From Ruminococcus sp. HUN007 (lineage in GTDB: Bacteria; Bacillota; Clostridia; Oscillospirales; Ruminococcaceae): 64,000 nt of DNA. The DNA lies in the NCBI RefSeq assembly GCF_000712055.1, contig NZ_JOOA01000002.1:1550001-1614000 (forward strand). Reading direction: 5' to 3'. The notes below the pieces were generated by a model. The model had not been told where the DNA came from and ran no database searches. It was given only the letters and a program-made list of their open reading frames with translations. The translations under genes and the position numbers were made by a program. Shown one piece after another: positions 2,343 through 25,995 of this stretch; the first letter of the stretch is position 1; the number at the start of each line of letters is the position of its first letter.

Positions 2343-3215
2343 TTAATCTTTAATTCCGGAGTGCGCCATAGTTTCAATTACGTTCTTCTGCGCTGCAACA
2401 AAGAATATCACCGGCGGTATCAGCATGAACACTGCCGCTGCCATTGCAACGCCCTGACGTGCTATACCGGAGGCCGCTGCCTGAGCGACTGCCGTCGGCA
2501 GAGTCTTGAGCGATTCGTCGAACACGTACGATCCGGACTGTATGTTCCACGCCGACTGGAAGGCAAATATCATAAGCGTCATAAGCGCCGGTTTCTGGTT
2601 CGGCATTACAATATTCCAGCAGGTGCGGAACATTCCGGCTCCGTCTACCTTTGCCGCTTCTATCATGGCATCCGGTATCTGGCTGATGGACTGCCTCATC
2701 AGGAATACGCCCATCGGGGTCGCAACTGACGGAAGTATCAGCGCAGCGTAGGTATCTATCATGCCAAGTTTCGCGATGACCATGTACTGGACTATGTAAA
2801 TGACATTGCTCTGGTAGAGCAGTGATACGACAATAACTGAATTAAGGAATCTGCTTCCTTTGAATTTTCCCTTGGCAAGCACAAACGCCGCCATCGATGC
2901 GGTAAAGCACTGAGCCAGTGTTACTGCTGCCGTTACGAAAACGCTGTTTGCGACATATCTTGAAAAAGGCACCCACAGCTGTCCGGCCGCCCTGAACATC
3001 TCGCGGAAATTGTCGAGAGTCGGGTCCATGGCGTAGAATTTCGGCGGAAAAATGAACCATTCCTGCGACGGCTTTATCGACATTACCACTGCAAGGTATA
3101 TCGGAAGGGCCATAAACAGAGCGAGAACAAACAGAAAAATGAAAATGCAGACTGTTCCGCCGTTCTTTCTGCCGGCTCTGCCGGATGAGGCCTTAAGTTT
3201 TTTTGCATCTGTCAT
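2343..3215 (-). CDS. Carbohydrate ABC transporter permease, MalG/LacG family
   Basis: A protein of about 290 aa with six hydrophobic segments and the EAA loop (IEAAKVDGAG, about residue 187) typical of MalG-type permeases. The start is the ATG at 3215 (MTDAKKLK), preceded by GAGGAGG. It overlaps the stop of the upstream permease by one base (TAATG). It pairs with the MalF-type permease upstream and the binding protein at 4293-7187. No ATPase gene is present; such importers often share a MsmK-type ATPase encoded elsewhere. Confidence 0.9.
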   Translation of the reverse strand: MTDAKKLKASSGRAGRKNGGTVCIFIFLFVLALFMALPIYLAVVMSIKPSQEWFIFPPKFYAMDPTLDNFREMFRAAGQLWVPFSRYVANSVFVTAAVTLAQCFTASMAAFVLAKGKFKGSRFLNSVIVVSLLYQSNVIYIVQYMVIAKLGMIDTYAALILPSVATPMGVFLMRQSISQIPDAMIEAAKVDGAGMFRTCWNIVMPNQKPALMTLMIFAFQSAWNIQSGSYVFDESLKTLPTAVAQAAASGIARQGVAMAAAVFMLIPPVIFFVAAQKNVIETMAHSGIKD

Positions 3216-4126
3216 TAAACCTGATCCTCCTCTGCCAGAACTCTGGTAATGAGCTTGTTCACACCGTACATCACAAGGAACAGCACGGTGCATATAGCTG
3301 AGGAATATCCCATCTCATAGCGGACCCAGCCGTAGTCGTAGGCATGGGTCATAACAGTATGCGCCGCATAATCCGTACTCGGAAATCCAACAAGGTTTCT
3401 TCCGACGATATCAGCGGTGAAAGCAGCGACTATCTGCATGACAGCGGCAAAAAGCATCTGAGGCTTCATTGCCGGAATGGTGATGTAGACAAGTTCCTGC
3501 CAGCGGCTCTTTATCCCTTCAACTGCGCCTGCTTCATACAGGCTTTTGTCGATATTCTGGAATCCGGCACGAAGTGCAAGAAATCCCGCGCCAAGGCTTA
3601 TCCAGAGCTGAACGAGTATGACCACGAAAAGGATGTAACGTGAATCCGTGAGCCACTGTCTGGCCGATGTCAGTATACCGAGATCCATGAGAACCGAGTT
3701 GACGTATCCGTACTGGTCACCGCTGAAAATGAGCTGCCATACCGTGTAGACGCTCGCCATGGACGGTATGTAGAATATCAGCGTGAACACCGTCTTCAGA
3801 CGTTTCGGAAGCTCGTTTATAAGCCATGCCAGCATAAAGCAGAGCACGTAGCTTACCGGTCCCGAAAATATCGCAAATATAAGCGTCGTCCTTATTGAGC
3901 GGATGAATATTCTGTCCGAAAGAAACAGATTTTTGAAATTGGAAAGTCCCGTAAAATGAGGCATATTGATCATATCAAAGTCCGTAAATCCCACCGGCAG
4001 TGAAATGAGCACCGGTATCACGGTAAACAGCACAAAAAACGCAAGAAACGGCGCCAGCATGAGCCAGCATTCGATGCTTTCAGATCTGTTGTAAGACCGC
4101 TTTTTTTTATTTTTTTCCGGCTTCAA
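3215..4126 (-). CDS. Carbohydrate ABC transporter permease, MalF/UgpA family
   Basis: A protein of about 303 aa with six membrane segments and an EAA loop (YEAGAVEGIKSRW, then IPAMKP), which is the MalF-type half of the importer. I chose the TTG at 4126 as start because AAAGGAGG sits 7 nt upstream. The in-frame ATG at 4147 has no ribosome site and would overlap that Shine-Dalgarno sequence. It has its own promoter/operator at 4172-4211, a near copy of the one before the binding-protein gene, so the permeases can be expressed as a separate but co-regulated unit. Confidence 0.88.
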   Translation of the reverse strand: MKPEKNKKKRSYNRSESIECWLMLAPFLAFFVLFTVIPVLISLPVGFTDFDMINMPHFTGLSNFKNLFLSDRIFIRSIRTTLIFAIFSGPVSYVLCFMLAWLINELPKRLKTVFTLIFYIPSMASVYTVWQLIFSGDQYGYVNSVLMDLGILTSARQWLTDSRYILFVVILVQLWISLGAGFLALRAGFQNIDKSLYEAGAVEGIKSRWQELVYITIPAMKPQMLFAAVMQIVAAFTADIVGRNLVGFPSTDYAAHTVMTHAYDYGWVRYEMGYSSAICTVLFLVMYGVNKLITRVLAEEDQV

Positions 4127-4171
4127 GCTTTCGCCTCCTTTACACATGGTTTTAATGCGTACAAATTCACA

Positions 4172-4292: not shown

Positions 4293-7187
4293 TTATTCTG
4301 CAAGATCTTTAAGTTTGCGTTTTATTTCAGTATTTATGTCGCGGTTGTACCACATAATCGTGTCACGCGGGTTGCGGTGGCTGTTTACTGTTTCACGGAA
4401 GGCAGTCATGATGTTTCGGGTAACTGCGTAGGATGCCGGGATGACCGGGATCTCTTTGAGTTCACTCCGCTGGGCTTCGAGGATCTTAAGTTCCGAAGGG
4501 GTCCAGGAGAGATTTGAAAGTGCCTCCGTGTTTGCTGTGTCATAGCGTCCCATTGTTCCTAGCAGACCTTCGACCAGAGTGCCGTATTCCGACTGTACAT
4601 CTGTCGATGTGAACCATTTAAGGAACTGCCATGCGTCGTCCTTGTTCTTTGTTTTCGTGAAGACAACCGCTCCGCTTCCTGCTGAGTTTGCCGCATGTGA
4701 AACTGTGCCGTCCGGGAGTTCGGTGCCCGGAACGAGAGTAAAGCCCCACAAGCCGTTGAGTTCAGGTGCAGCCGACTTCAGCTGATTGCAGAAAGTGTAG
4801 TTCTGTATCACGATCGGATAGGTTCCGTCGCGGAAACGGCTGAACGGGTCGTAGACCTGCTCGAAACGGTAGTCAGTGTACAGGTCAGTCCATTTTTCAA
4901 AGGACTGCACCGCACTTACGCTGTCGAACGTTGTGGAACTCATGTCGTCGTTATAGTAGCCGAGCCCGTTCTGTAGCATGAGAAGGGCAAATGTATGTCC
5001 CGGTTCAGTCGAAGCTGAGATATTCGAGGACGGGAGCACCAGACCTGCGTGAAGATTATTACGCTGCAGGGCAGGCATCATTTCCACAAGGTCGTCCCAG
5101 GTCTCAGGAAGCGTGGTTATTCCAGCTTCGGTGAGGATATCCTTGCGGTAGAACATAACCGGAAAGCTCTGTGAAAGCGGCATTCCGTATACTCCGCCGT
5201 CGTAGGTGTACTGGGTCATGGCTTCTTCCTGGAAGTTTTGTTTTGCATCTTCAAAGCCGTCTTTTTCGTCAAGTCTTTCAAGAAGTCCTCGTGCAGCAAG
5301 GTTTACCGGAAACTCACCGCCAAGGAACAGCGCCACGTCCGGACCTTTTCCGGCAAGAGCCGCTTCAACAACTCCGCCCTGAACTATGCTTATATTGACC
5401 GGTATGTCGTATACCGGAGTAAATTCCGATTCGACCAGCTCCTTTACCGCAAGGGCCTGATCACGTCCGAGACTCACCCAGACATCCAGTGCGTCTTTCT
5501 TCTCCGAGCCGGAAACGAGACTGTAATCCTGATCAAACGACGCAAAAAAGGCCTTTGCTCCGAACGCAAGAGACGAGAAGAAGTTTTCCTTTACCGGTGA
5601 AAACTCCGCATCTGCAGAAGCTATCTCAATATAGTCGATCTCAAGCGGCTGATCGCGGTAGTCACGTATCCACGATGAAATGGCCGCAATGTTGTCCTTT
5701 AACTGTGAAAGATACATCGGAATACGTGCCGGTTTTTCGGTACATTTATCGAGAATAACGTACATACGCTCGATGCCCGCAGCTTCGGATCCGGTAAATC
5801 CGGTAAGATTCTCTATGCTTTTCTTTATCTCCTTCAGCCTGCCGGAAATGTTCTTAAAATCGCCGGTTATTTCCGGAATTACACGGTCAACATTGTAGTC
5901 CGTGTACTTGTCAGGCGAAGGGCCCGTGATCATAAGTATTCTTCTGTAGTATTCATTAAGTTCGCCCACCACCGGTTCAAGGCGCCTCATAGGCTCACCT
6001 ATATCGCCCGGAACGGCTTCCATGGTGATGGTATGTGTGTTTCCGGCAGTAAGATAAACGTAAATATCTTCGCCGCCGTCAGTCTGCGGAATGACGTTCT
6101 GCCAGTCGTTGTCATACCTGAAACGGACATTTTCAAATTCACTGCACGGAACCGTGCCGTCAATGTATATGCGCCTTGCAGAATTGAATCCGCGCATGTA
6201 GCGCTGTCTTGCTTTAATACCGAGGCGGTACCATCCGTCCGACTTTATCCCGCCGGCCGGTATTTCCCAGGTGATGGTCTGAAACGCCTTCTGCCAGTTA
6301 TTGTCGCCGATCGTGTTGTAGACAAGATGTCCCGGATCAGCCGGTGAAGCAAGATAGCTTGCATTGTCCGAAGTAGGATAAAGTGTTGAATCCGACTTGA
6401 ACGCCGCATCCTCGCCCTCTATACGTATCAGTGCGGATACCGTACCGTTTATTTCATCCGCAGAAGGCTTCGTTTCCTTATAGGACGGGATCTGCTTTCT
6501 GCCGTAAAATTTTATATATTCAAGAGCAATGTACGCCCTCGATGCTTCAAAAGTTATTTCGTGAGTTCCCTTTGTAAGATAAAACAGAAGCGGAGCGTTA
6601 TAGAGTCCGTCCGGATCGTTAAGTGAAGTCTCACACCATCTGCTCTGCTGGACCTGTGCAGGTCTTATCTGGTTTCCGGATGAGTTTACAGTTATCTCCT
6701 TTTCATTTACCCAGACTCTGTTAAGGGTTATGCGCGAAGCAGCGTCGAACGGCACTTCACCGTCGACGGAAACCGAAAGCTCCGTAGAAGCCGCATTTCC
6801 CACCGGTGCATAGGAAAGATCCATACAGTATACCGCCGTTTCCGGTATTTCAACTTTATACGAAAGCGTTCCTTCAGCCGAGTTCCAGACAAGCGCGTCC
6901 TTAGTCACACCAGCCGCATCGGTAAATGCCTTCTTCGTAAAATCCCCGTTTTCAGCTTTCAGATGATCTTCCGCCTTTACGATAACTTCTGCGGATGCAG
7001 GTTTCTGCGATGAATACTCGCTGTAGTAATCATGATAACTGCGCTTTTCAGTGTATTCTATTTCATACGAAAGCGGATCATCAGAAGCAGAGACTACATT
7101 GAAAGTACAGAGTGATGCATTTGAAAAAGCAAACACAAAAGCAGCAGACAAAGCTGCATATCTTCTGATTTTTCTTGTTTTGTCCAT
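4293..7187 (-). CDS. Large extracellular sugar-binding protein with N-terminal beta-sandwich region
   Basis: A protein of about 964 aa. The start is the ATG at 7187 (MDKTRKIRR), with GGAGGTGA 7 nt upstream; a GTG just before it is less likely. It has a Sec signal peptide. The N-terminal half (about residues 60-410) contains two stretches that read like carbohydrate-binding beta-sandwich domains. The C-terminal 400 residues are a family-1 extracellular solute-binding domain (KGPDVALFLGG, YGMPLSQSFPVMFYRKD, TWDDLVEMMPAL). It is more than twice the usual length of a sugar-binding protein. No clear lipobox is seen, so the anchoring is uncertain. It probably captures oligosaccharides for the two permeases downstream. 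Confidence 0.85.
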   Translation of the reverse strand: MDKTRKIRRYAALSAAFVFAFSNASLCTFNVVSASDDPLSYEIEYTEKRSYHDYYSEYSSQKPASAEVIVKAEDHLKAENGDFTKKAFTDAAGVTKDALVWNSAEGTLSYKVEIPETAVYCMDLSYAPVGNAASTELSVSVDGEVPFDAASRITLNRVWVNEKEITVNSSGNQIRPAQVQQSRWCETSLNDPDGLYNAPLLFYLTKGTHEITFEASRAYIALEYIKFYGRKQIPSYKETKPSADEINGTVSALIRIEGEDAAFKSDSTLYPTSDNASYLASPADPGHLVYNTIGDNNWQKAFQTITWEIPAGGIKSDGWYRLGIKARQRYMRGFNSARRIYIDGTVPCSEFENVRFRYDNDWQNVIPQTDGGEDIYVYLTAGNTHTITMEAVPGDIGEPMRRLEPVVGELNEYYRRILMITGPSPDKYTDYNVDRVIPEITGDFKNISGRLKEIKKSIENLTGFTGSEAAGIERMYVILDKCTEKPARIPMYLSQLKDNIAAISSWIRDYRDQPLEIDYIEIASADAEFSPVKENFFSSLAFGAKAFFASFDQDYSLVSGSEKKDALDVWVSLGRDQALAVKELVESEFTPVYDIPVNISIVQGGVVEAALAGKGPDVALFLGGEFPVNLAARGLLERLDEKDGFEDAKQNFQEEAMTQYTYDGGVYGMPLSQSFPVMFYRKDILTEAGITTLPETWDDLVEMMPALQRNNLHAGLVLPSSNISASTEPGHTFALLMLQNGLGYYNDDMSSTTFDSVSAVQSFEKWTDLYTDYRFEQVYDPFSRFRDGTYPIVIQNYTFCNQLKSAAPELNGLWGFTLVPGTELPDGTVSHAANSAGSGAVVFTKTKNKDDAWQFLKWFTSTDVQSEYGTLVEGLLGTMGRYDTANTEALSNLSWTPSELKILEAQRSELKEIPVIPASYAVTRNIMTAFRETVNSHRNPRDTIMWYNRDINTEIKRKLKDLAE

Positions 7188-7249
7188 CACACTGTCACCT
7201 CCGTCCGATCAGAACAATGTCAGATTTTGTCCGGATCTGCATTATTCCA

Positions 7250-7399: not shown

Positions 7400-7431
7400 A
7401 CCGGAAGCAGATTTGATTTTCTGCTTCCGGT
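7400..7431 (-). terminator. Terminator of the RiPP-like operon
   Basis: The 12-bp stem ACCGGAAGCAGA / TCTGCTTCCGGT has an 8-nt loop and is followed on the minus strand by eight T residues. It lies about 65 nt after the nucleotidyltransferase gene stops. A near-identical stem is reused at 18626-18659. Confidence 0.85.
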
Positions 7432-7495
7432 AAATGTGTTTTATGTTATGATCACTATCCTGCTGATTTTTTTAATTCAGTTTCCCGCCGTTTTC

Positions 7496-8605
7496 TTATC
7501 GCTTGCAAAGCAGTTTAAATTCAGATAAAACCTTTTTTCTGTTCTTTGTAAGTCCCATAACAGCACGGTAGAAAGGAAGGAACGGTATGAGCCATTTGTG
7601 TCTGTAAAAGAACGGGTACCACGACTGGATGAACTCCATAGGGATGAAGATCCTGCTAAAAATATATTTCGCCTTTGAACCTCCGCTCTTTGTCATGAGA
7701 TTTCCGATATTATTGGCGACTGTTCCGTATGATCCGGAAAAGATATGGTAATCAAGAAGCTTTGTTTCCTCTTCGGTCAGATCATCTGTTTCAAGGAACT
7801 TAAGTGCAAGCTCACGGTTGTTCTTTTCATACTCTTCAATGCCGAGTTTTTTTAATTCTTCAGCAATGTAGTCCCAGTCCATGGAATCGCTGAACTTTTT
7901 TAAGAATACATAAGTATCCACAAGCGAACGCACACCTGTTCCGCCGGCTGCAAAATGTTTGTATTCATGTGCTGTTATATAAATATAAAAATCTTCTGTT
8001 CTGAAATGATAGCCGTAATCATTGTTCTCATCTTTTATAAGGCGGTCTTTCACATCGCCATAGTATTCGTGGAGATTACCAGCATTTGCGGTATGGAAAA
8101 GTTCATTGTGCATTTCGAAATTGCAGACCGGCTCCTTGTGATAGGCATCGTCGTTGCCTTTTCCGTAGTGCTCACATTTAAAGCCCAGATCTTCCATGAT
8201 CTCCTTTATACGCGCACGTTTGCTGCCGTCACATAAAATATCATTGTCGGACATCTGACGCATACCAAGTCTCGGATACCAGTCCTTTAACAGTGAGCCT
8301 TTAAGCGGCATGTACCAGATCTTTTCCTTTTCAAGGCGGTCAAGTATCTTCTTACGTTCAGTATCCATAAGAATATTCTTGCGTATCGCCTTTTCCTTTG
8401 CCTGACTGAAGTTTTCGTCTTTAATTCCTGCCGATTCAAGTGCATACGCTACACAGGCGGTAAGAGAGTGTTTCTGACACACGTAAAACAAGCCTTTGAG
8501 ATCAATCTCGTAAAGTCTTTCCTGATCATGTGATGTTCCTCTCAGTACGCATGAAGTCAGCCAGATCATGTCAAGTGCGTTTTTTCTGTATTCATTCTGT
8601 TCCAT
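7496..8605 (-). CDS. NTP_transf_5-type nucleotidyltransferase family protein
   Basis: A 369-aa protein of the uncharacterised nucleotidyltransferase family found in some peptide-maturation clusters (for example, beside HPr-kinase-like genes in Paenibacillus lasso clusters). The segment MPLKGSLLKDWYP, then GMRQMSDNDILCDG (about residues 98-128), carries the Lys-Gly and Asp-x-Asp features of the catalytic core. The N-terminal 100 residues are closely matched by the short protein at 11006-11347. It is the last gene of the operon and overlaps the ABC exporter gene by 14 nt. The substrate is unknown; modification of a peptide is an inference from context. Confidence 0.78.
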   Translation of the reverse strand: MEQNEYRKNALDMIWLTSCVLRGTSHDQERLYEIDLKGLFYVCQKHSLTACVAYALESAGIKDENFSQAKEKAIRKNILMDTERKKILDRLEKEKIWYMPLKGSLLKDWYPRLGMRQMSDNDILCDGSKRARIKEIMEDLGFKCEHYGKGNDDAYHKEPVCNFEMHNELFHTANAGNLHEYYGDVKDRLIKDENNDYGYHFRTEDFYIYITAHEYKHFAAGGTGVRSLVDTYVFLKKFSDSMDWDYIAEELKKLGIEEYEKNNRELALKFLETDDLTEEETKLLDYHIFSGSYGTVANNIGNLMTKSGGSKAKYIFSRIFIPMEFIQSWYPFFYRHKWLIPFLPFYRAVMGLTKNRKKVLSEFKLLCKR

Positions 8606-10313
8606 GTTTTTCGATTACTCCGTTTTCTGTAAACTGCAGTATCCTGTCGCATATGTCAAGTGCCGCAGGACGGTGTGTGACTATGACAACTGTTTTGTCA
8701 GTCATTGTTTTAAGGTTTTCAAGTACTTTTCTTTCCGTCTGTTCGTCAAGCGCACTTGTTGCCTCATCAAGAAGAAGCACAGGGCAGGCTGAAAAAACTG
8801 CTCTTGCAATGGCGATTCGCTGCATCTGTCCTTCAGAAAGTCCTGCACCGCGTTCGCCGAGAAGAGTATCAGCGCCCTGTTCAAGTTCAGACACGAACTC
8901 ATCGGCACAGGCGATCTTCAGTGCTTTATTCAGTCTTTCGTCATCGGTGGAAGCTTTTTTTTCGGCAAATGAGATTATCTCCCTTATTGTACCGCTGAAA
9001 AGCTGGTTTCCCTGCGGAACATAGGCAAAAAGCCGACGCCATTCCGGTGAAAGCTCCTTTTCACCTTCCGTGGATTCAATATACCTAATTCCTCCGTCAA
9101 GTCTGTAAACACTCATAAGGAGCTTTAATACTGTAGATTTTCCGCATCCGCTGTGTCCGGTAAACGCAACATATTCACCTTTTCGTATGTCAACACTGAT
9201 GTTTCTGAACACAAGCGGCATTTCTTCCTTGGTAAGGTCGCTTATTCTGTCAACTACAGGATAGTAGGTAAACTCCGCGTTCCTTATTCCGAAACCCTTC
9301 ATTTCTTTTTCGTAGAATGAGTTTACTTCCTCTGCCGTAAGAACAGTGTTTTCGCTGTCATCAGTGAATTTTTCTATTTCCATTATTCGTTCAGCACTTG
9401 CCGTCATTGCGTAGAACTTCGGCAGGTAGCCAGTTATATTGGCAAACGGAGACTGTATCTGGGAAATGAGCTGGGTAACGGCTGTGAGTGTACCGTAGCT
9501 TATTGTTGAAGTAAGAATACCGTAACCGCACCAGCATACTCCGAGAAGATACATTCCCTGCATTCCGGTCTGAAAGCCCATATTGCATATGTTCGAAAAC
9601 CGGTTTTTCTTCATTCTTGCGGCCTTGTGCACTTCCATTTTCTCTGTTGATTCTGATTCAGTCTGATCTTCGGCTGCAAAGGAACGAATCATCATCATAC
9701 TGCCGATGTGCTCCTGAAGAAAAATACGGAGTTTTCCGTCTTTCTCCTGGATCTGCCGGTGAAGGCGCTTGATATTTTTACGAAAGGCATAAGTGAAAAA
9801 GAGCATCACACATCCGGCAGGAATAAGGAGTGCCGCAAACTTTGGTTCAAGAGCAACTATCATGACAGCTGCACTCACAAGCTTTACCGTCATGCCGGCT
9901 GCTCCCGGAAGTATTTCAGTAAAATTATTAGCCACTACCATGCAGTCATTTGTCAGACGGTTCATCCATTCTCCGGAATGTACTGCACTAACAGAGGAAT
10001 AGTCCTTGCAGAGCAGGTTATGAAACAGTCTGCTTTTAAACCGGTTTTCAAGCGATGAACGTGACTGTTCCTCAAGGTAACGTATCATGGCACTGAGCAT
10101 TACCTGCCCGAGAACAAGAAGTGCGGTGTAAATGCAGTTTCTGAAAAATCCTTCCCGGTCATGCGCCACTGCACTGTCTACAATGTTTCTGAGAAACAGT
10201 GCGTACAGCACACCGGATCCGCCGTTCAGCGCCTGCACCAGCATAAGTGCTGCAACGTAATATTTCTTTTTACCGGTAACGTGCCAGAGCCATTTTAGTG
10301 AGTTGTTTTTCAT
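8592..10313 (-). CDS. ABC exporter, fused membrane and ATPase domains
   Basis: A 573-aa half-transporter. Six membrane segments occupy about residues 15-320. The ATPase domain has Walker A GHSGCGKST (about 384-392), signature LSEGQMQRIAIARA (about 485) and Walker B VLLLDEATSALDE. No C39 peptidase domain is fused to it, so any leader removal would need another protease, such as the S26-like protein encoded just upstream. The start ATG at 10313 overlaps the upstream gene by 4 nt. It most likely exports the product of this locus. Confidence 0.88.
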   Translation of the reverse strand: MKNNSLKWLWHVTGKKKYYVAALMLVQALNGGSGVLYALFLRNIVDSAVAHDREGFFRNCIYTALLVLGQVMLSAMIRYLEEQSRSSLENRFKSRLFHNLLCKDYSSVSAVHSGEWMNRLTNDCMVVANNFTEILPGAAGMTVKLVSAAVMIVALEPKFAALLIPAGCVMLFFTYAFRKNIKRLHRQIQEKDGKLRIFLQEHIGSMMMIRSFAAEDQTESESTEKMEVHKAARMKKNRFSNICNMGFQTGMQGMYLLGVCWCGYGILTSTISYGTLTAVTQLISQIQSPFANITGYLPKFYAMTASAERIMEIEKFTDDSENTVLTAEEVNSFYEKEMKGFGIRNAEFTYYPVVDRISDLTKEEMPLVFRNISVDIRKGEYVAFTGHSGCGKSTVLKLLMSVYRLDGGIRYIESTEGEKELSPEWRRLFAYVPQGNQLFSGTIREIISFAEKKASTDDERLNKALKIACADEFVSELEQGADTLLGERGAGLSEGQMQRIAIARAVFSACPVLLLDEATSALDEQTERKVLENLKTMTDKTVVIVTHRPAALDICDRILQFTENGVIEKHGTE

Positions 10314-10756
10314 CCTGATCGTAATTTCTTTCTTTTCATTCTTTTAAGTTTAGATACAACATGGGTGATCAGTGCTCTGACAGGGAAAAAATCACACCAC
10401 AGGTGGACGTAGAGTTTGTATTTCCAGTTATCAACGGAAACTTCCTTTCCGTTGCGAATGACCGCAGAAAGCACACCTATTATGTGTCTGTCGGAAATGC
10501 CGTATTCCTTTACCCAGCGGTTATCACCGCAGATAACATAATCGTCCTTCCTGACTTTTAATATTCTGTGAAGAACGTACTGACCGCTGTCACGCCTGTA
10601 AAGCGGAACGTCATACTTCTTCAGCCTGCCGTTTACAGATTTTATTACCAGAAGATCACGGTCCTGCTTGATAAGGGGCATCATGCTGTCGCCCTTGTTG
10701 GTGTAGATGAGCTTCCCGTTCTGAGAAAGCTGCTCCTCAAAGGTGGATTTATTCAT
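10310..10756 (-). CDS. S24/S26-family signal-peptidase-like protein
   Basis: A 148-aa protein. KGDSMMPLI (about residues 22-30) is the GxSMxP serine motif, and YVLHRIL followed by DYVICGDNRW matches the HR and GDN boxes of S26 signal peptidases. A His takes the place of the usual Lys, as in SipW-type enzymes. The N terminus lacks a membrane helix; a hydrophobic stretch near the C terminus may associate with membranes. It overlaps the PqqD gene by 8 nt and the exporter gene by 4 nt. It is a candidate peptidase for the small peptide encoded at 12190-12291. Confidence 0.75.
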   Translation of the reverse strand: MNKSTFEEQLSQNGKLIYTNKGDSMMPLIKQDRDLLVIKSVNGRLKKYDVPLYRRDSGQYVLHRILKVRKDDYVICGDNRWVKEYGISDRHIIGVLSAVIRNGKEVSVDNWKYKLYVHLWCDFFPVRALITHVVSKLKRMKRKKLRSG

Positions 10757-11009
10757 CTATCGCTCCGATTTTTCTAAGCTGGTCGATTATTTTTAAGGCA
10801 TCACGTTCAAGTACATCACGCGGAGCATCGTATTCCCTGGCCATCTTTGCTACGATCTCCTCCGGTGTAGTTTCAGTTTCAAGACAGTTTATAATAAATC
10901 CCGCTGTCGGATTTCCTCTTACAAGTCCTGAAAACTTTGCTGCCCCTGTTGAAACGAGAAGCTTTTCGTTTCCGTCTTCGTGTGCTATAAACTTATTACT
11001 CAGTTTCAT
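10749..11009 (-). CDS. PqqD-family peptide-recognition protein (RRE)
   Basis: An 86-aa protein with the PqqD fold signature: an N-terminal beta-rich part (VSTGAAKFSGLVRGN), GFIINCLETETTPEEIV, then a helix with YDAPRDVLERDALKIIDQL. PqqD-like proteins bind the leader of ribosomally made peptides and deliver it to modifying enzymes. It overlaps both neighbours by a few bases, so it is strictly co-translated with the truncated protein and the S26-like peptidase. Its presence is the strongest argument that this operon processes a peptide. Confidence 0.85.
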   Translation of the reverse strand: MKLSNKFIAHEDGNEKLLVSTGAAKFSGLVRGNPTAGFIINCLETETTPEEIVAKMAREYDAPRDVLERDALKIIDQLRKIGAIDE

Positions 11010-11347
11010 AATTTCAACTTCTTTCTTATACTTATAATATATTTTTCAAGCCGTTTTCTCTCTTTTTCACTTTCAAAAAGATACTTTCCGGCTGTTTTTT
11101 TCACTTTTTCAAAATTACCGTCGTGAACACCTGCCGATTCAAGTGCACAGGCAACACATACTGTAAGTCCGTGCTTCTGACATACGCCGAACAGATTGGC
11201 ATCAAGGTCTTCGAGAAGTCCTTTATCGGGAATAACACCGTTCAGTGCACATAAAGCAAGAATGATCATATCGGCTTCACTTTTCCTTATTTCATTCGCG
11301 GCGCATGTGATCAGAAAATCAGGATCTTCGTTAATTTTACTTATCAT
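11006..11347 (-). CDS. Truncated paralogue of the nucleotidyltransferase N-terminal domain
   Basis: A 113-aa protein. The start is the ATG at 11347 (MISKINEDP), overlapping the TGA of the kinase-like gene (ATGA). The block LFGVCQKHGLTVCVACALES matches LFYVCQKHSLTACVAYALES in the full nucleotidyltransferase at 7496-8605, and similarity continues through the next helix. It stops just before the catalytic KG...SDND region. It is therefore either a relic of a duplicated gene or a retained stand-alone N-terminal domain. The intact overlaps with its neighbours favour retention. Confidence 0.75.
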   Translation of the reverse strand: MISKINEDPDFLITCAANEIRKSEADMIILALCALNGVIPDKGLLEDLDANLFGVCQKHGLTVCVACALESAGVHDGNFEKVKKTAGKYLFESEKERKRLEKYIISIRKKLKL

Positions 11348-12078
11348 TCTTTCATTGCACTGTAAGCGACTTTCGCCGCTTCGATGTCCATATTGCACGC
11401 AAGTCTGTAAAGTCTGACGCTGTCAGCCATTTCGTCGATAAGTCTGAGAGTTTTCGCCATCTGTAAAGCATCTTTCGGACGGTACACCTGCTGCAGGAGC
11501 ATAGCGTAGGCATCGGATTTGCTAATACGGACTATCTCATTTTTCTCACCGCGTTCGAGAATGCAGATTGCCTTAAGCGGAACCGAAATGTTTGTACCCA
11601 GTCTGTGTTTTCCGTTGTACGGAGTGCCGTATACGGTAACGCCATCATCGGTAACTTTAATTATAGGCTTGTCGTCATTTACCATGACAGCCTTTTCTCC
11701 GAAATATTCACGCCAGAGACGTGTATGAGTAGACTTGCCTGTTCCCGATTTTGCAGTAAACAGATAACCTTCGCCGTCAACAGCAATAACTGAACCGTGG
11801 AATACGAACGAATCGTAGTCCGGCATTTTTTCAGCTATTTTACGGTAGACTGCGGTCGATTCATAGACACCGTCGGAATAAGCAGGTACGGGTTTGCCTT
11901 CGAATTCATATTCCTTTCGGGTTATTTCTTTTTCATTTTCAATGTCTTTTTCATTTGTTTCGACTGAAAAATCCGTCGCATTTTCTGATTCATAACCTGC
12001 ACAGTATTTCTGCACTTTATCGTTTACTGATTTTATTTCAACAACTTTTTCTGCAAATTTATATTTTCCTTTGAACAT
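11344..12078 (-). CDS. HPr-kinase-like P-loop protein
   Basis: A protein of about 244 aa. The start is the ATG at 12078 (MFKGKYKFAEK), preceded by GGAGGAAAG. It contains FHGSVIAVDGEGYLF, the P-loop TAKSGTGKSTHTRLW (about residue 107) and VMVNDDKPII, the layout of the HprK C-terminal kinase domain. The HprK N-terminal domain is absent. Short HprK-like proteins occur in lasso and other RiPP clusters, where a homologue phosphorylates a Ser of the precursor peptide. Here the peptide encoded upstream carries Thr and Ser residues, so a peptide kinase role is plausible but unproven. Confidence 0.82.
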   Translation of the reverse strand: MFKGKYKFAEKVVEIKSVNDKVQKYCAGYESENATDFSVETNEKDIENEKEITRKEYEFEGKPVPAYSDGVYESTAVYRKIAEKMPDYDSFVFHGSVIAVDGEGYLFTAKSGTGKSTHTRLWREYFGEKAVMVNDDKPIIKVTDDGVTVYGTPYNGKHRLGTNISVPLKAICILERGEKNEIVRISKSDAYAMLLQQVYRPKDALQMAKTLRLIDEMADSVRLYRLACNMDIEAAKVAYSAMKE

Positions 12079-12132
12079 CTTTCCTCCATAAAGCAAAGAA
12101 TTAGTAACAATTTGCTTTTTTAAACAAAAAGG

Positions 12133-12170
12133 AATAGACACCACACCCCCGAAGGAGCATGATGTCTATT
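12133..12170 (-). terminator. Strong hairpin between peptide gene and kinase-like gene (attenuator or mRNA stabiliser)
   Basis: On the minus strand AATAGACATCATGCTCC pairs fully (with G-U pairs) to GGGGTGTGGTGTCTATT across a UUCG tetraloop, about 17 bp in all, followed by CCTTTTTG. It sits between the stop of the peptide gene and the next start. Such a site would let the peptide mRNA exceed the enzyme mRNA. Confidence 0.75.
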
Positions 12171-12189
12171 ATTTTAATCTGAGTGAAAA

Positions 12190-12291
12190 TTATTCAGCGT
12201 CACCGCCATCTTCATTAACGTCAGATGTTGTGATAACATCTTCAGCATCGAAGTTGATGATTCTGAGCTCAGCTTCTGTGTACTTCTGCAT
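12190..12291 (-). CDS. Small acidic peptide, candidate RiPP precursor
   Basis: A 33-codon reading frame with a very strong ribosome site (GGAAGGAGGAGAAATCC-ATG). The product begins MQKYTEAELRIINF, continues DAEDVITTSDV and ends NEDGGDAE. It is strongly acidic and has no signal peptide and no Cys. An amphipathic leader-like half followed by a small polar tail with Thr-Thr-Ser fits a precursor peptide for the downstream PqqD, kinase-like, peptidase and exporter proteins. I recall short clostridial proteins with a similar xDVIxTS segment, but this could not be checked. It might be transcribed from its own promoter or by read-through from the gene 64 nt upstream. Confidence 0.72.
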   Translation of the reverse strand: MQKYTEAELRIINFDAEDVITTSDVNEDGGDAE

Positions 12292-12355: not shown

Positions 12356-15300
12356 TTAAGGGGTAACAGGATTGTCTTCTACATTTGCTGTGATATTATC
12401 AGCATAAATGTACTGTTCAATTCCAGTCTTGTTATCCTTAACCTTTACAAAACCACGAACGTATACCTTGTTATTATCAACCTTCTTGATATTAAGTGAA
12501 TAGGTTACGCCGTTAGTGCTGATAGCACTTCCTGCTTTCTTATTGATCTTAAATGCATCAGTAGCACTTACGTTAGCTTTTTCTACTGTAAAGTCTGTAG
12601 TATCAGGCGCACTGTCAAGACCGTTAGCATAAATGAAGCCGTACTCACTTACAGTAACATCACTCTCTGCTGCGCTTTCGTCTAACTTACGAGTGCTTTC
12701 GAATCTTGCAGCTGGCTTACCATCGTTAGCTGTTGTATTTCCATTTACACATTCATCTGTAACTGTTACAAGCTTCTTAAGCTGCTTAATGCTGATATCT
12801 GCAAAGTTGTAGTTTGCGCAAGTTACATCTGCACCATAATTTGCTGTATTATCACCAACATAGTTAATATACTTTATGAATCTTGCACCGTCTTCGTTCT
12901 CAACAACGATGAATGCACGATATCTTACACCGGCACCATTGTCAACAAACTTAACAGTATAAGAACTCATATTAGCTGTTGTCTTGGATGTCTTCTTAAT
13001 GAATGTATTTGCTGTATCGTTTGCAGCTTCCAGAGTCATATCCTGCCACTTACTGATATCAGCTGCTCCTGCAGGTTCAGCAACATTAGAATAGATGTAA
13101 CCAGCTTCTACTACCTTTAAGTTTTCTGAAGCATTAGCATTCTTTGTTATTGTAAACTTTGCCTGAAGCTTGTTCTTGCTGCTTTCAGTGTATGCAACCG
13201 GAGGAGTCTGTACTTCTGCAATTTCAAATGCATTTGTCATCTGAGCATTAACAGCAGATGCATAATCTGTTCTCATGATATCAGCTGCATAATCATCAGT
13301 ATATACAGTCCACTCTGTGTTTGTCGCAACATTCTTAAGTGTTACAAACGCTCTTGCAGTTACGCCAAAGCCTTTGTCTGCAATTGAAAGTGAATAGTTT
13401 CCGCTGAAGCTTGGAGTTTTAGCATTGTAAACCTTGATTGTGTTGCCATTCTTCTCCTTGCCTTTATTCTCAACAGTAAGATCAGCCGCAGTTAACTGGT
13501 TATTATTCTCCTGATTAGCATAAACATAACCAAGTGCTGTTACTTCAAAACCTTCAGAGAATTCCGGTACTTCCTTTCTGTTAAATGTAAACTTAACAGC
13601 CGGATTACCACTACCATTTATCACACCTGTTGTTGGCATCCATGATAAAGCAATAGCTTTCTTAAAGCTTACCCCGTCAATTACAGACCAATCAAGCTTA
13701 AGTGTACCTGTGTAGTTATTCTTACCCTGAATCTTAGTAGTATAGTTGCCTTCCTTATTAGCACTGATAGTACCAGCTAAGTAGAAATCATATCCCTTAA
13801 AAAGTTCGGTGCCTTCTGCAGTTGTAACCGTAATATTCGGCTTTCTGTAATTGGTTCCACCAGTAGTAACCAGTACAGTTTCAGGAGCACTTGCTGTTGC
13901 AAAACCGTTAAGATTAATAGGGTCAACCTTTGCGGTAATCGTAATAGCACCATTATCAATGTTATTTAATAAAGCGTAATTAGTTCCAAGTGCCTTAACT
14001 ACTTCTGCAGGTACTGCTTTAAACTCATATTTGAGGGCATTGACCATTGGCATCTTTTCTGTATCTGTGTCGCCGCCAAGTGTGATTGCTATTTTACCAA
14101 GTTCAGCATTTACTGCGTCAGCATCCTTTTCAAGAACCTCATCAGTAAAAAGCTTAAACTCTGATCTGTGATCTTTTCCATCATAAGTAACAGATTCCTT
14201 ATTGAATGAAACCTTTACTTTTTTAGCTACAACGGTGATATCAGCTGTAGCAACTGTCTCTTCTGCATTTACAGCAGATACAGTATACTCATTGATGTAA
14301 TCACGCAGTTCTGTAATTACTTCTAAATTGTCAGCATTCTCGTTATAGTTAATGCCTGTTAAGGTATTAATAGCCGCCAACGTACTTGTTTTATCGTTTT
14401 CTAACTTTGCCATAATACCAGCAGCATCAAATGTTTTAACATCAATTAAAAGATCTTCAGTCACATTTACAGATTCCGGAAGCGCTGTAGGAGGAACAAA
14501 ATTGCCAAATACTGTTTCGTAAGCTGCTCTGAAAACAAGCTTTTGTTCCTGATCGGCAACTAAATATTTTTCAGCTAACTCTTTCTCAAAAACAGGTGTA
14601 AGCTTGTATGTAACGCCTGACTGATCGCCTTCAAATTCATCTAATGCGAAATCAAAGCTGTCACCATATTCATAGTCAAGACCATTCACCTTCACCGGAT
14701 CTTCATCTTCAACTGAATCTGCGCGAATGATAGCAGATTTGAACGCAGCATCTGAATACCACTTAAATTCCTGTACTATACCATCATAATCATTGATGCC
14801 TACAATTACAAGTGTATGAATACCTCTTTCTGTTGAAGTTACTTCACCTTCGATTATATAGTCTTCATTTTCATCTAATGTTTTTTCGCCGTTCTTAACT
14901 GTAATTCCTGGTCTTACCCAAGCTCCATCCTGGTCTTTAGGTTTCTGAAGAATCTCAAGATTTGGATACGCTACATATACGCCTTCCACTGAGTTAATTG
15001 TCCAGCCATCCACAACGCTAACATTAAGATTATCGTCTATCGGTGAAATCTTAAATTCCTTCTCGATGTGGTAATCACCAATGCCTTCTGTTGAGCACGC
15101 ACCCTCTTCGTCGTAGAGATAGATATCAGCTACTGCTTTATAGCTGCCAGCGTTTTCCGGCTGAGCATCAAGAACATTTCCATTCTTGTCCTTATAACTG
15201 ATAACTATCTGGCATGAAAGAGTTGACCAAACTGCAGCAGCTTCACCGTTTTCAGAATTATCAGCATTGCCAATTGGTTTTACTACAAAATCATAAGGGC

Positions 15301-16498
15301 TTCCAGCAGTAATTGGATTACTTGTATCAAAACCGAAATGATAAACAACATCTTCATCAGTGATCTCAGTACTTGTAGCTGTGATTTCTTCGCCGTTTTC
15401 TGCTACGGCGAAATTCCAGTTCTGGTCAGCATGTGTGATGAATATATCGTTGTAAGGAGCTGTGAATGTATACTCATATTCATTTGTATTTGAATTAAGT
15501 GATCTCGGAGAAGACACTCTTAAGTCTTTGTTTTCACCTGTAAGATCAAGTACACCATTACCGTTTGTATCCTCAAACACTGCAATATCTTTTATAGTTG
15601 AACCGATCTTATAACGGTTATCCGGGTAAACCGTTGAATTAGGGAGTATTGCTGGATTTTCACTATTGGTTACATCGTATATGGATGTATTCTTATCATC
15701 TCCTGAAATTTTGATCGGTTGTGCATTAGGATCTATGCTTTGAGCAACGCTCCATTCTGTTGCCCTTTCCGCTATTATTACATCTTTTCTTCCGACAACA
15801 AATGTATAAACATACTTTGCGCCGTCAGCAGCGTTTTCTTCAGCTTTTTTAACGTAAGCGCTGAATCTGACATCGTTCTCGTTTTGTAAAACAACAGGTG
15901 TAATGTTTAAAGCCTTCTTTGATCTGATTACATACTCATAACCGGTCTTTACTTTAGTAAATTCCTGATCTATACCTGTTATGTGAACCTCACTGCCATT
16001 CTGCTTAATAGATATTATATCATCCCACACAGGTTCAAAATTAATATGAAGTCCTTCATTAACAACTGGATCTTCCCATGTGAGTGTGAGTTCCTTCTTT
16101 TCTGCATCAATAGAATCAACGTAGATGCCTAAACCTGAAGTTATATTTGTATTATCTTTATCATCATCATCTCTGAAAGTTGCGACAGGTAATGCACCAT
16201 TATCATCGCTGTCAAAAATACCTGATTCGTTTATTTTAACAACACCTGTGTAGGTCTTGCTTTCAGCATTTGTTCCGTTAGTTTCATCCTTAACTGTACC
16301 AGGAAGTACGGTTACTGTCCATGTTTCACCTGGTCCGGCTGTGATTGTTTCAGGCAGCTCAGATCCTGCACTTAAATTTATCTCATCCGCATGAACAATA
16401 CTTGTAACAATTCCGCTTAAATCACTCGGAAGCATTGTTGTTGTCATAGCCAGTGATGTTACAAAGGCTGCAGTTCGTTTCCAACTCTTTCTTTTCAT
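12356..16498 (-). CDS. Giant secreted protein with Ig-like/MBG-like domains and three C-terminal repeats
   Basis: A 1380-aa protein with a signal peptide (MKRKSWKRTAAF... to about residue 38). RBS AGGAGGAAACTACG precedes the ATG. The middle contains beta-sandwich units with MBG-like phrases (VTYDGKDHRSEF, GINDYDGIVQEFKW, GKNNYTGTLKLDW) and one calcium-loop-like stretch (DTNGNGVLDLTGE). The last 430 residues hold three repeats of about 150 aa, each with a core near 984, 1131 and 1284: GYVYAN, GYIYSN, GFIYAN, followed by RAF(V/I) and RGFV strands. No LPxTG, S-layer or dockerin module is seen. By eye the gene is more A/T-rich than its neighbours. The function is unknown; surface adhesion or a structural role is likely. 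Confidence 0.72.
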   Translation of the reverse strand: MKRKSWKRTAAFVTSLAMTTTMLPSDLSGIVTSIVHADEINLSAGSELPETITAGPGETWTVTVLPGTVKDETNGTNAESKTYTGVVKINESGIFDSDDNGALPVATFRDDDDKDNTNITSGLGIYVDSIDAEKKELTLTWEDPVVNEGLHINFEPVWDDIISIKQNGSEVHITGIDQEFTKVKTGYEYVIRSKKALNITPVVLQNENDVRFSAYVKKAEENAADGAKYVYTFVVGRKDVIIAERATEWSVAQSIDPNAQPIKISGDDKNTSIYDVTNSENPAILPNSTVYPDNRYKIGSTIKDIAVFEDTNGNGVLDLTGENKDLRVSSPRSLNSNTNEYEYTFTAPYNDIFITHADQNWNFAVAENGEEITATSTEITDEDVVYHFGFDTSNPITAGSPYDFVVKPIGNADNSENGEAAAVWSTLSCQIVISYKDKNGNVLDAQPENAGSYKAVADIYLYDEEGACSTEGIGDYHIEKEFKISPIDDNLNVSVVDGWTINSVEGVYVAYPNLEILQKPKDQDGAWVRPGITVKNGEKTLDENEDYIIEGEVTSTERGIHTLVIVGINDYDGIVQEFKWYSDAAFKSAIIRADSVEDEDPVKVNGLDYEYGDSFDFALDEFEGDQSGVTYKLTPVFEKELAEKYLVADQEQKLVFRAAYETVFGNFVPPTALPESVNVTEDLLIDVKTFDAAGIMAKLENDKTSTLAAINTLTGINYNENADNLEVITELRDYINEYTVSAVNAEETVATADITVVAKKVKVSFNKESVTYDGKDHRSEFKLFTDEVLEKDADAVNAELGKIAITLGGDTDTEKMPMVNALKYEFKAVPAEVVKALGTNYALLNNIDNGAITITAKVDPINLNGFATASAPETVLVTTGGTNYRKPNITVTTAEGTELFKGYDFYLAGTISANKEGNYTTKIQGKNNYTGTLKLDWSVIDGVSFKKAIALSWMPTTGVINGSGNPAVKFTFNRKEVPEFSEGFEVTALGYVYANQENNNQLTAADLTVENKGKEKNGNTIKVYNAKTPSFSGNYSLSIADKGFGVTARAFVTLKNVATNTEWTVYTDDYAADIMRTDYASAVNAQMTNAFEIAEVQTPPVAYTESSKNKLQAKFTITKNANASENLKVVEAGYIYSNVAEPAGAADISKWQDMTLEAANDTANTFIKKTSKTTANMSSYTVKFVDNGAGVRYRAFIVVENEDGARFIKYINYVGDNTANYGADVTCANYNFADISIKQLKKLVTVTDECVNGNTTANDGKPAARFESTRKLDESAAESDVTVSEYGFIYANGLDSAPDTTDFTVEKANVSATDAFKINKKAGSAISTNGVTYSLNIKKVDNNKVYVRGFVKVKDNKTGIEQYIYADNITANVEDNPVTP

Positions 16499-17459: not shown

Positions 17460-18485
17460 ATGAATGAAATAGATGTAACAGATAGAAATGATCCTGAATA
17501 TACTGCTCTGCTCAACAACGTGAGCAACGCAATAGAAAAAGGCAAAGGAAAAGCTGCTGCCGCAATCAATTCTGCAATGGTTCAAACATACTGGCAGATT
17601 GGTCAGTATATCGTTGAATTTGAACAAAGTGGTCATGAAAAAGCCGAGTATGGTTCAAACACCTTGAAAATGCTTGCCGCTGACCTCAGCATCCGTTATG
17701 GTAAAGGTTACAGTTGGAGCAATATATATCGTATGCGACAGCTATATCTCTCTTATGAAAATTTTGCGACACTGTCGCAAAAATTGAATTGGAGTCATTA
17801 CGTTGAGCTTTTGAAGATTGATAACAGTGCCGAGAGAGCATTTTATGAGAGAGAATGCATCGCCGAGAACTGGGGCGTTCGTGAACTGAAACGTCAGATG
17901 AAAAGTATGCTCTATCATCGGTTAGCTCTGAGCGGTGATAAGAGTGAAGTGATGCGGCTTTCACGTGAAGGTCAGATCATAGAGAAGCCAGAGGATATTA
18001 TAAAAGAGCCTTATGTACTTGAATTCACAGGACTTCCTAATCTGCCTGTTTACAAAGAGGGTGATCTTGAAGAAGCACTCGTTAATAATCTAAGCCAATT
18101 CTTTCTTGAACTCGGCAAAGGCTTTACCTATGTCGGCAGACAGCAGAAGATGGTCATTGCAGGCAGGACATACAAAGTAGATCTGGTGTTCTATCATCGT
18201 ATCTTGAAATGCTTTGTACTTATTGACCTGAAAATCGGTGAAGTTCAGCACGAGGATATTGGGCAGATGAATTTTTATCTTAACTATTATAAGCAGGAAA
18301 TGAACACTGAAGGTGACTCTGAACCGATAGGCTTGATACTCGGTGCTTATCAGGACAAACTGGTCATGCAATACGCTCTCCAGAATATCACCAATCAATT
18401 ATTCGTAAGCCGTTATCAGTTATATCTTCCAGACAGAGAACAGCTTGAAGCTGAGTTTCGCAGATTTATGAATGATGAGGAATGA
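17460..18485 (+). CDS. DUF1016 (YhcG-type) PD-(D/E)XK nuclease domain protein
   Basis: A 341-aa protein. The N-terminal half has the DUF1016 N domain (INSAMVQTYWQIGQYIVEFE, YGKGYSWSNIYRMRQLYL, LNWSHYVELLKI). The C-terminal half has the nuclease core: FTYVGRQQKMVIAG, then KVDLVFYH and FVLIDLKIGE (about residues 240-262), giving the Asp...Asp-x-Lys catalytic set. It has the usual length for the family. Members often lie beside restriction systems or in defence islands, but this one stands alone, on the opposite strand to its neighbours, between 64-bp direct repeats. This suggests a mobile cargo gene. The start ATG follows GAGGTATTGTT. Confidence 0.88.
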   Translation: MNEIDVTDRNDPEYTALLNNVSNAIEKGKGKAAAAINSAMVQTYWQIGQYIVEFEQSGHEKAEYGSNTLKMLAADLSIRYGKGYSWSNIYRMRQLYLSYENFATLSQKLNWSHYVELLKIDNSAERAFYERECIAENWGVRELKRQMKSMLYHRLALSGDKSEVMRLSREGQIIEKPEDIIKEPYVLEFTGLPNLPVYKEGDLEEALVNNLSQFFLELGKGFTYVGRQQKMVIAGRTYKVDLVFYHRILKCFVLIDLKIGEVQHEDIGQMNFYLNYYKQEMNTEGDSEPIGLILGAYQDKLVMQYALQNITNQLFVSRYQLYLPDREQLEAEFRRFMNDEE

Positions 18486-21320: not shown

Positions 21321-21342
21321 AAATTCATCCTTTCTGTAAAAC

Positions 21343-21370
21343 GGGTTACTCCTGACTACAGGGGTAACCC
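21343..21370 (-). terminator. Intercistronic hairpin between the two GH9 genes
   Basis: The 12-nt arms GGGTTACTCCTG and CAGGGGTAACCC are separated by ACTA. Only a short T tract follows (GTTTTACAG), and it lies 23 nt before the downstream start codon. It is more likely an mRNA-processing or stabilising hairpin, or a partial attenuator, than a full stop. Confidence 0.6.
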
Positions 21371-21412
21371 GCCTTATGTTTACTGATTTACACAAGCTAT
21401 GCTGTGAATTAA

Positions 21413-25983: not shown

Positions 25984-25995
25984 TCGTGTACCCCC

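Follow-up and report, generated by a model that had tools for sequence, protein, structure and literature searches.

What does a gene cluster make that holds the recognition, kinase, nucleotidyltransferase and export components of a ribosomally synthesized and post-translationally modified peptide (RiPP) pathway but no cyclase, and what might the peptide be for? The question is raised by an operon of Ruminococcus sp. HUN007 that lies on the minus strand, at 7400..12291, of a 64,000-nt stretch of contig NZ_JOOA01000002.1 (positions 1,550,001 to 1,614,000; this whole stretch is hereafter the window, and coordinates count from its first letter unless a locus is named). The initial annotation had proposed that it might serve a linear peptide, phosphorylated or nucleotidylated, whose leader an S26-type peptidase removes. 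By analogy this appears to be right in kind, because in Paenibacillus alginolyticus the same gene set phosphorylates such a peptide and cuts off its leader, according to the accessible part of PMC13381572. We consider it probable, at roughly 0.8, that the operon is a clostridial branch of the pathway for linear polyphosphorylated peptides (LPPs) reported there. The enzyme system is already published, and the phosphopeptide chemistry itself is not new. What is new is the coupling of LPP-type precursors to giant secreted proteins and to surface stalks that copy the peptide core, which literature searches did not find in print. Both the described LPP kind and the giant protein encoded upstream, which seems to be part of the system, had been overlooked in the initial annotation.

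LPPs come from the lpp cluster of P. alginolyticus DSM5050 (Nat Commun, May 2026; PMC13381572). In the accessible part of that paper, the genes run in the order LppA (precursor), LppK (HprK-like kinase), LppB (RiPP recognition element, RRE), LppS (SipW-like peptidase), LppD (MsbA-like exporter) and LppN (NTP transferase), with no cyclase. LppK was found by experiment to place several phosphates onto Ser3 of the core, Thr or Tyr in its place not being modified, and LppS together with LppB removes the leader, which leaves this Ser as core residue 3; for LppN no activity was seen in the host employed, and what LPPs do biologically is given there as unknown. The window operon shares this gene set and the order A-K-B-S-D-N, with a discrete RRE and a SipW-like peptidase of the same Ser/His spacing, and both clusters are without a cyclase. 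Its precursor family has in common with LPPs a YxxP-like leader motif and one conserved Ser right after the predicted cut. The features concerned are the following.

12190..12291, minus strand: precursor peptide of 33 aa, MQKYTEAELRIINFDAEDVITTSDVNEDGGDAE; its ATG is preceded by AAGGAGGAG, and it matches the family profile
12193..12231, minus strand: predicted core, TTSDVNEDGGDAE, with the conserved Ser23; placed from the LPP cut site and the family alignment
12133..12170, minus strand: hairpin terminator in the precursor/kinase gap; 17 pairs and a T tail, fold z -5.7
11344..12078, minus strand: HprK-like kinase (LppK-like), 244 aa; weak curated-model matches, active-site residues kept
11006..11347, minus strand: 113-aa fragment like the N-terminal region of NTP_transf_5; 49% over 90 aa, E 4e-20
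10749..11009, minus strand: PqqD / RRE (LppB-like), 86 aa; PF05402 E 1.4e-14
10310..10756, minus strand: SipW/S26-like serine peptidase (LppS-like), 148 aa; TIGR02228 E 2e-4, catalytic residues present
8592..10313, minus strand: ABC exporter (LppD-like), 573 aa; ABC_membrane 1e-29, ABC_tran 2e-26
7496..8605, minus strand: NTP_transf_5 protein (LppN-like), 369 aa; PF14907 E 1.1e-41
7400..7431, minus strand: terminator closing the operon; 12-pair stem with a T tail
12356..16498, minus strand: giant protein, 1380 aa, probably secreted, proposed partner of the peptide; the role is suggested by its relatives

All seven open reading frames (ORFs) of the operon drawn in the initial annotation were confirmed on the minus strand. 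The start/stop overlaps it described hold from the kinase onwards, where every stop as far as the NTP_transf_5 gene overlaps the following start by 4-14 nt, but not between precursor and kinase, which are separated by a terminator. Instead of the one terminator it had listed, two were found near the operon on the minus strand, at 7431-7400 and 12170-12133. Since the giant ORF (12356-16498) lies on the same strand as the precursor, with a gap of 65 bp in which no terminator-like site was seen, the transcription unit may begin at the giant ORF.

The kinase matches curated models weakly (TIGR04249, ScmC, E 9e-9; Hpr_kinase_C, E 0.008) and keeps a Walker A motif and NDDKP, with Lys115, Thr117 and Asp136 present in 106/106 aligned homologues; a PDB sequence search with it returned nothing useful. 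We preferred its ATG at 12078 over an upstream GTG at 12144 because near homologues mostly have 243-245 aa and the GTG falls inside the hairpin. The PqqD protein, for which there is a single match in the genome, has Asn33 and Asp70 at the LppB positions. The S26-like protein is also matched weakly by family models (TIGR02228, archaeal signal peptidase I, E 2e-4; PF00717, E 0.009) and, by profile against the PDB, by signal peptidase I 4nv4 (E 0.009). Its Ser24, His63 and Asp78 occur in 80/80 aligned homologues, and the Ser-His spacing of 39 equals that of LppS; the invariant Asp78 may be the counterpart of D93 of LppS. No peptidase domain is among the Pfam matches of the ABC exporter. In the NTP_transf_5 protein, Gly103, Asp120 and Asp122 are kept in 45/45 aligned homologues. 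The 113-aa ORF ends short of this Gly103...Asp120-x-Asp122 motif and thus has no catalytic motif; it has no match in Pfam or NCBIfam, and its ATG at 11347 overlaps the kinase stop, an alternative GTG start lying upstream. PsmN of a related lasso system has been tied to hexoses on phospho-Ser in the accessible part of PMC9266682, and an addition of the hexose type is, by analogy, a possible role for the NTP_transf_5 protein.

How widespread is this set? The kinase family is large (7947/7998 scored candidates match), and the kinase is found in 8/11 genomes of the same genus and 23/148 of the family; its named relatives are mostly from Ruminococcus, Oscillospiraceae, Lachnospiraceae and unplaced Clostridia, many of them from rumen or gut samples. 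We compared 112 kinase loci (numbered with L), consisting of 32 regions and the best 80 of 558, the latter biased to near relatives. In the 112-locus counts L039 and L150, which are the same contig, and the near-identical L040/L041 and L096/L104 were kept separate. Up to 9 kb from the kinase, many contigs ending early, profiles matched PqqD in 89 of the 112 loci, S26 in 80, an ABC exporter-like protein in 60 and NTP_transf_5 in 51. Distant kinase homologues stand beside a radical-SAM-looking CxxxCxxC gene (cluster c12) in L065, L066 and L068, in the first two also with PqqD; these loci are probably a different RiPP type.

The initial annotation had staked its reading on a small peptide conserved beside the enzymes, and one with a conserved leader indeed occurs in 40/112 loci and, further, elsewhere in kinase-bearing genomes. 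An iterated profile built from ten seeds found 49 further precursor ORFs in those 40 loci. Their leader follows the consensus K.[YF]..PEMEV..F..EDVITTS, and their cores are tiny, variable and acidic, with 5-25 residues after the Ser (median 12) and a median net charge of -3; pairwise identity averages 0.47 across leaders and 0.10 across cores. In 48 aligned rows, Ile stands at -3 in 48/48, Asp at -5 in 47/48 and Ser in 48/48, the last partly by construction because the alignment filter demanded a Ser and thereby dropped 2 of the 49 profile matches (L061 and L063). Distant precursors have the Ser in 21/21 cases, though they were found with profiles built from Ser-bearing sequences. In the window precursor the Ser is followed by DVNEDGGDAE, and Ser23, with two residues ahead of it, fits a cut at DVI/TTS by analogy with LPPs. 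The genome holds one clear precursor match (E 1.4e-12, with a profile that includes the window precursor), the second (E 0.52) being noise.

Precursors and kinases also go together by genome: precursors were detected in 13/148 family genomes, all 13 among the 23 that bear the kinase (Fisher 7e-13), and in 7/11 genus genomes, all among the 8 kinase-bearing ones. Many precursors lie far from the enzymes, and therefore one enzyme operon may serve several of them. In L137 (7131-7910), four successive precursors with differing cores stand ahead of one enzyme operon. A radical SAM gene of family c1 is present in 5/7 loci with Cys in the core and in 0/33 other loci (p 3e-5), in a table filled by hand with PF04055 confirmed in both of the c1 genes scanned, out of 5. 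This match between a tailoring gene and Cys cores supports the precursor ORFs as real substrates. L116 encodes another CxxxCxxC protein, outside c1, which we take to be RlmN from its looks.

Could the enzymes modify another substrate, the 33-aa ORF being a regulator or a chance ORF? Such an explanation would agree with the terminator that the precursor has to itself downstream and with the 72/112 kinase loci that have no precursor in reach, a count that speaks against our own reading as well. It has to contend, however, with a precursor profile that gives 0 matches in reversed sequence, a strict co-occurrence of precursor and kinase in genomes, a leader conserved together with its RRE-type motif, and the restriction of radical SAM c1 to Cys-core loci, and we regard it as very improbable.

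If the peptide is the substrate, what does it meet outside the cell? Precursors are encoded directly behind a secreted-looking protein in 34/58 cases, versus 23/474 among the remaining genes in those regions (p 4e-23), adjacency being defined as a gap of at most 150 bp on the same strand with an upstream secreted-looking protein of at least 300 aa; of 71 precursors, 58 enter this count, which leaves aside the window precursor and 12 others with less than 1 kb upstream. Among precursors remote from the enzymes, 13/18 are adjacent to a giant. Many giants end in a helical domain (...YSPMSYAYxVL...LVKALYLYNxAAxAY) that had no Pfam or PDB match here and that is found in 13/148 genomes; 10 of these 13 also have the kinase, out of 23 kinase-bearing genomes in all (p 2e-7). 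A Pfam scan of eight giants gave 1) BspA-type leucine-rich repeats in 3, 2) a papain-like protease with a lectin-like domain in 1, and 3) nothing in 4, including the window giant, for which there was no match at E 0.01. In two genomes, G122 and G126 (e.g. L190 4663-7956 and L191 8186-14851), the C-terminal domain is carried by several large proteins, with 8 matches in 8 ORFs and 9 in 6.

The core varies with the end of the giant. An LP-type core stands beside 21/29 giants with the helical domain versus 1/14 without it (p 6e-5), which is supportive only, because the core regular expression was written after the cores had been seen. Across 325 pairs from 26 loci, core similarity tracks that of the giant's last 130 residues when kinase identity is held constant (partial Mantel on ranks, r 0.27, 9/2000 permutations as high), whereas core versus kinase similarity with the giant C-terminal domain held constant gives 0.03. 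A comparison of L096 and L104 is consistent with this. They share one block of 5.2 kb, mostly giant body, at 97.6% identity and another of 2.1 kb, beginning at the kinase start, at 98.5%. The DNA in between is alike only in short patches (74% and 89%), and the giant end and the precursor differ (GCPDYVYGEDED versus KDIDEGSEEE). L096 has a radical SAM gene that is absent from L104, and its giant ORF is without the N-terminal part found in L104. Likewise, in L105 and L093 giant and precursor are replaced between flanks of 92% and 81%. In polymorphic modules, specificity pairs move together, and these cassette changes, which are two cases and no rule, resemble such modules by analogy. From such sequence patterns, we see the giant C-terminal domain as quite possibly the matched partner of the peptide, if at somewhat less than even odds.

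A second kind of protein carries a likeness of the core. The motif [ED][LT]Pxx[IVF]P occurs near a protein end in 29/112 loci (28 of them distinct), and its carriers, which we call stalks, are by their look mostly low-complexity lipoproteins or membrane-anchored proteins. It is usually at the C-terminus (as in IELPFVPVE); in L038, L081 and L145, it directly follows a signal-like segment, and a hydrophobic segment lies at the opposite end. Among 1446 called genes, the motif is otherwise near an end only in three precursor cores and one radical SAM protein. Unusual cores are copied by the tips of their own loci, SPEGELLDPFE pairing with PPEGKQVDPFAG in L082 and GGAGTED with GGAGNED in L156, and IELPEI tips are paired with the cores ITTPEI and ITMPEI in L151 and L153. 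In L127, an ELP-type locus, the peptide GELPFVPAE goes with the tip IELPFVPAF. When same-locus pairs of tip and core were compared with shuffled ones, scores as high were reached in 0/20000 shuffles for 23 pairs, in 3/20000 for 20 pairs without near-duplicates and in 2/20000 for 24 pairs with four adverse rows added. An initial comparison had omitted L051, L056, L093, L113 and L137; the results just given restore all except L137, the "stalk" of which is a precursor ORF.

For a tip like the window core, we searched the DNA of the same genome with the pattern [DE][DE]GG[DE], which occurs in 15 places, the reversed-pattern control giving 5. Only one of these is of a suitable kind; it lies at 856-1521 of L221 in the same genome (~0.8-1.5 kb past the window end) and is a 221-aa lipoprotein-like ORF whose ending, TDTDDGGEQ, is faintly core-like; it was not counted as a stalk because its body looks globular. 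The ORF beside it is presumably a uracil-DNA glycosylase.

Taken together, these patterns suggest how the system might work. The RRE (PqqD) would bind the leader, probably via Tyr4; the HprK-like kinase would phosphorylate Ser23, probably more than once, by analogy with LppK; the SipW-like peptidase would cleave near DVI/TTS; and the ABC exporter would release a linear acidic peptide, TT(p)SDVNEDGGDAE or similar, to whose phosphate the NTP_transf_5 protein may add a group. Phosphorylation and leader cutting are demonstrated for the P. alginolyticus relative and are extended to the window system by analogy, whereas the gene set, the active sites, the conserved leader with its variable core, the genome association, the adjacency and the co-variation are read from the sequences compared here. 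Outside the cell, the peptide would meet the C-terminal domain of its own giant, and where a stalk exists, its unmodified tip copy may compete for or share the binding site of the peptide. We tentatively propose a polymorphic surface recognition system, in which the secreted phosphopeptide would be the cognate ligand of the C-terminal domain or domains of its own giant, the stalk would show an unmodified copy, and recombination would exchange the peptide together with its domain and its tailoring enzyme. Peptide and stalk would then distinguish self from non-self, or control how the several surface proteins with this domain dock and are released; as a whole, this proposal is doubtful. Docking and release of surface proteins, self-recognition and decoy immunity would each fit, and the data favour none of them.

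Several observations count against a surface partnership. 1) The N-terminus of the window giant, MKRKSWKRTAAFVTSLAMTTTMLPS, is signal-peptide-like by eye, yet its hydrophobic peak of 1.4 is below the threshold of 1.8. 2) Its C-terminal 200 aa gave nothing significant against other giants (best E 0.09). 3) No stalk is present at the window locus. 4) When near-duplicates and the two most striking pairs are left out of the tip/core comparison, a set of 14 remains, in which 304/20000 shuffles reach the observed score. 5) Little or no core likeness is seen in the stalks of L056, L093, L113 and L116 and in the neighbours in L195, L199, L201 and L204. 6) Own tips rank low for L038, L052, L123 and L132. 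The helical C-terminal domain has no match in the window genome, and the body of the window giant bears a weak resemblance to the L096/L104 giants (E 2e-6).

A different account of the same loci holds that the LPP-type peptide is an antimicrobial or a signal, the stalk lipoprotein an immunity protein or decoy, and the giant a mere neighbour. A core copied at the stalk tip is what an immunity decoy might look like. We nevertheless find this account unlikely: adjacency to a giant persists for precursors that are remote from the enzymes, the core tracks the giant C-terminal domain, domain, precursor and radical SAM gene change jointly between L096 and L104, and many loci, the window included, are without a stalk. 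The surroundings of this branch offer a concrete candidate partner for LPP-type peptides, namely the C-terminal domain of the neighbouring giant, and should the two bind each other physically, RiPPs that carry phosphate would act as surface-protein ligands and not as antibiotics.

Around the operon, the window encodes other proteins. Divergent from the giant, a gene for a YhcG/DUF1016-type PDDEXK nuclease lies on the plus strand (17460-18485). At 4293-7190 there is a 965-aa solute-binding protein, with its binding domain only from about residue 580, adjoining two permease genes (2343-4147). Near the operon, 18693-24133 encodes two GH9 cellulases with CBM3 and dockerin type I domains, and by these GH9/dockerin genes the host looks like a Ruminococcus-like, cellulosome-bearing bacterium. 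PMT-type mannosyltransferase matches were found in two genes at 24520-28326.

With which known system, then, does the operon belong? ScmC of SynChlorMet (TIGR04249) is the best curated-model match of the kinase (E 9e-9), and two of the listed relatives bear that name in UniRef, but the window kinase reaches 35.1 bits against a cut-off of 125. Paeninodin-type lasso clusters, with the kinases PadeK and PsmK and the nucleotidyltransferase-like PsmN, have an RRE, an HprK-like kinase and an NTP transferase in common with the window. Such clusters also carry an exporter. They differ in having a cyclase and a B2 protease where the window has an S26 peptidase, in a leader motif with Trp for the Tyr of the window, and in a conserved Ser at the C-terminus and not at the leader/core border.

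The window might still encode a lasso pathway whose cyclase and B2 protease are found elsewhere in the genome, given that paeninodin-type lasso clusters in the accessible literature include PqqD, an HprK-like kinase and NTP_transf_5, that Gly follows TTS in some family cores, and that the genome has three large PF00733 proteins elsewhere. We rejected this explanation as barely credible. As the initial annotation had said, the operon has neither enzyme; the PF00733 matches are far off, and PF13471, the B2 protease, has no match over the cut-off genome-wide (best E 0.36). None of the 1446 called genes of the 112 loci has SGGxDS, an Asn synthetase motif that three such enzymes of the same genome show. 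The core is unsuited, too. The lasso rule of a Gly-type residue 1 and an Asp/Glu at 7-9, as given in the accessible part of its source, does not describe DVNEDGGDAE after the Ser; the window core has no Gly1, and family cores are as short as 5 residues after the Ser. The SipW-like peptidase, moreover, is present as in LPP and contrary to lasso clusters.

The LPP assignment itself has points against it in leader recognition. Of the leader motif published for LPPs, YxxPxVLxHQxIxFETxxS, a part alone is seen in the family, which has Tyr/Phe in 44/48 rows and Pro in 25/48, does not keep HQ and FET, and keeps the Ser in rows pre-filtered for it. In the window leader, Ala replaces the RRE-binding Pro, and the Tyr-to-Ser spacing is 19 versus 18 in LPP. 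By profile, the RRE scores better with the lasso RREs TfuB1 (E 5e-4) and TbiB1 (1e-3) than with LppB (9x8z, 0.18). Because of the partial leader motif, the Ala for Pro and the RRE profile favouring TfuB1, we file the window as LPP-type, with its RRE a candidate member of the LPP clade at most. The two also differ in core length, with 5-25 residues after the Ser in the window family and a core of 45 residues in LPP. The clostridial branch further differs from LPP by a giant secreted neighbour, stalks that copy the core, and radical SAM variants; the main text of PMC13381572 contains none of the terms lipoprotein, surface protein, secreted, radical and Clostridi-.

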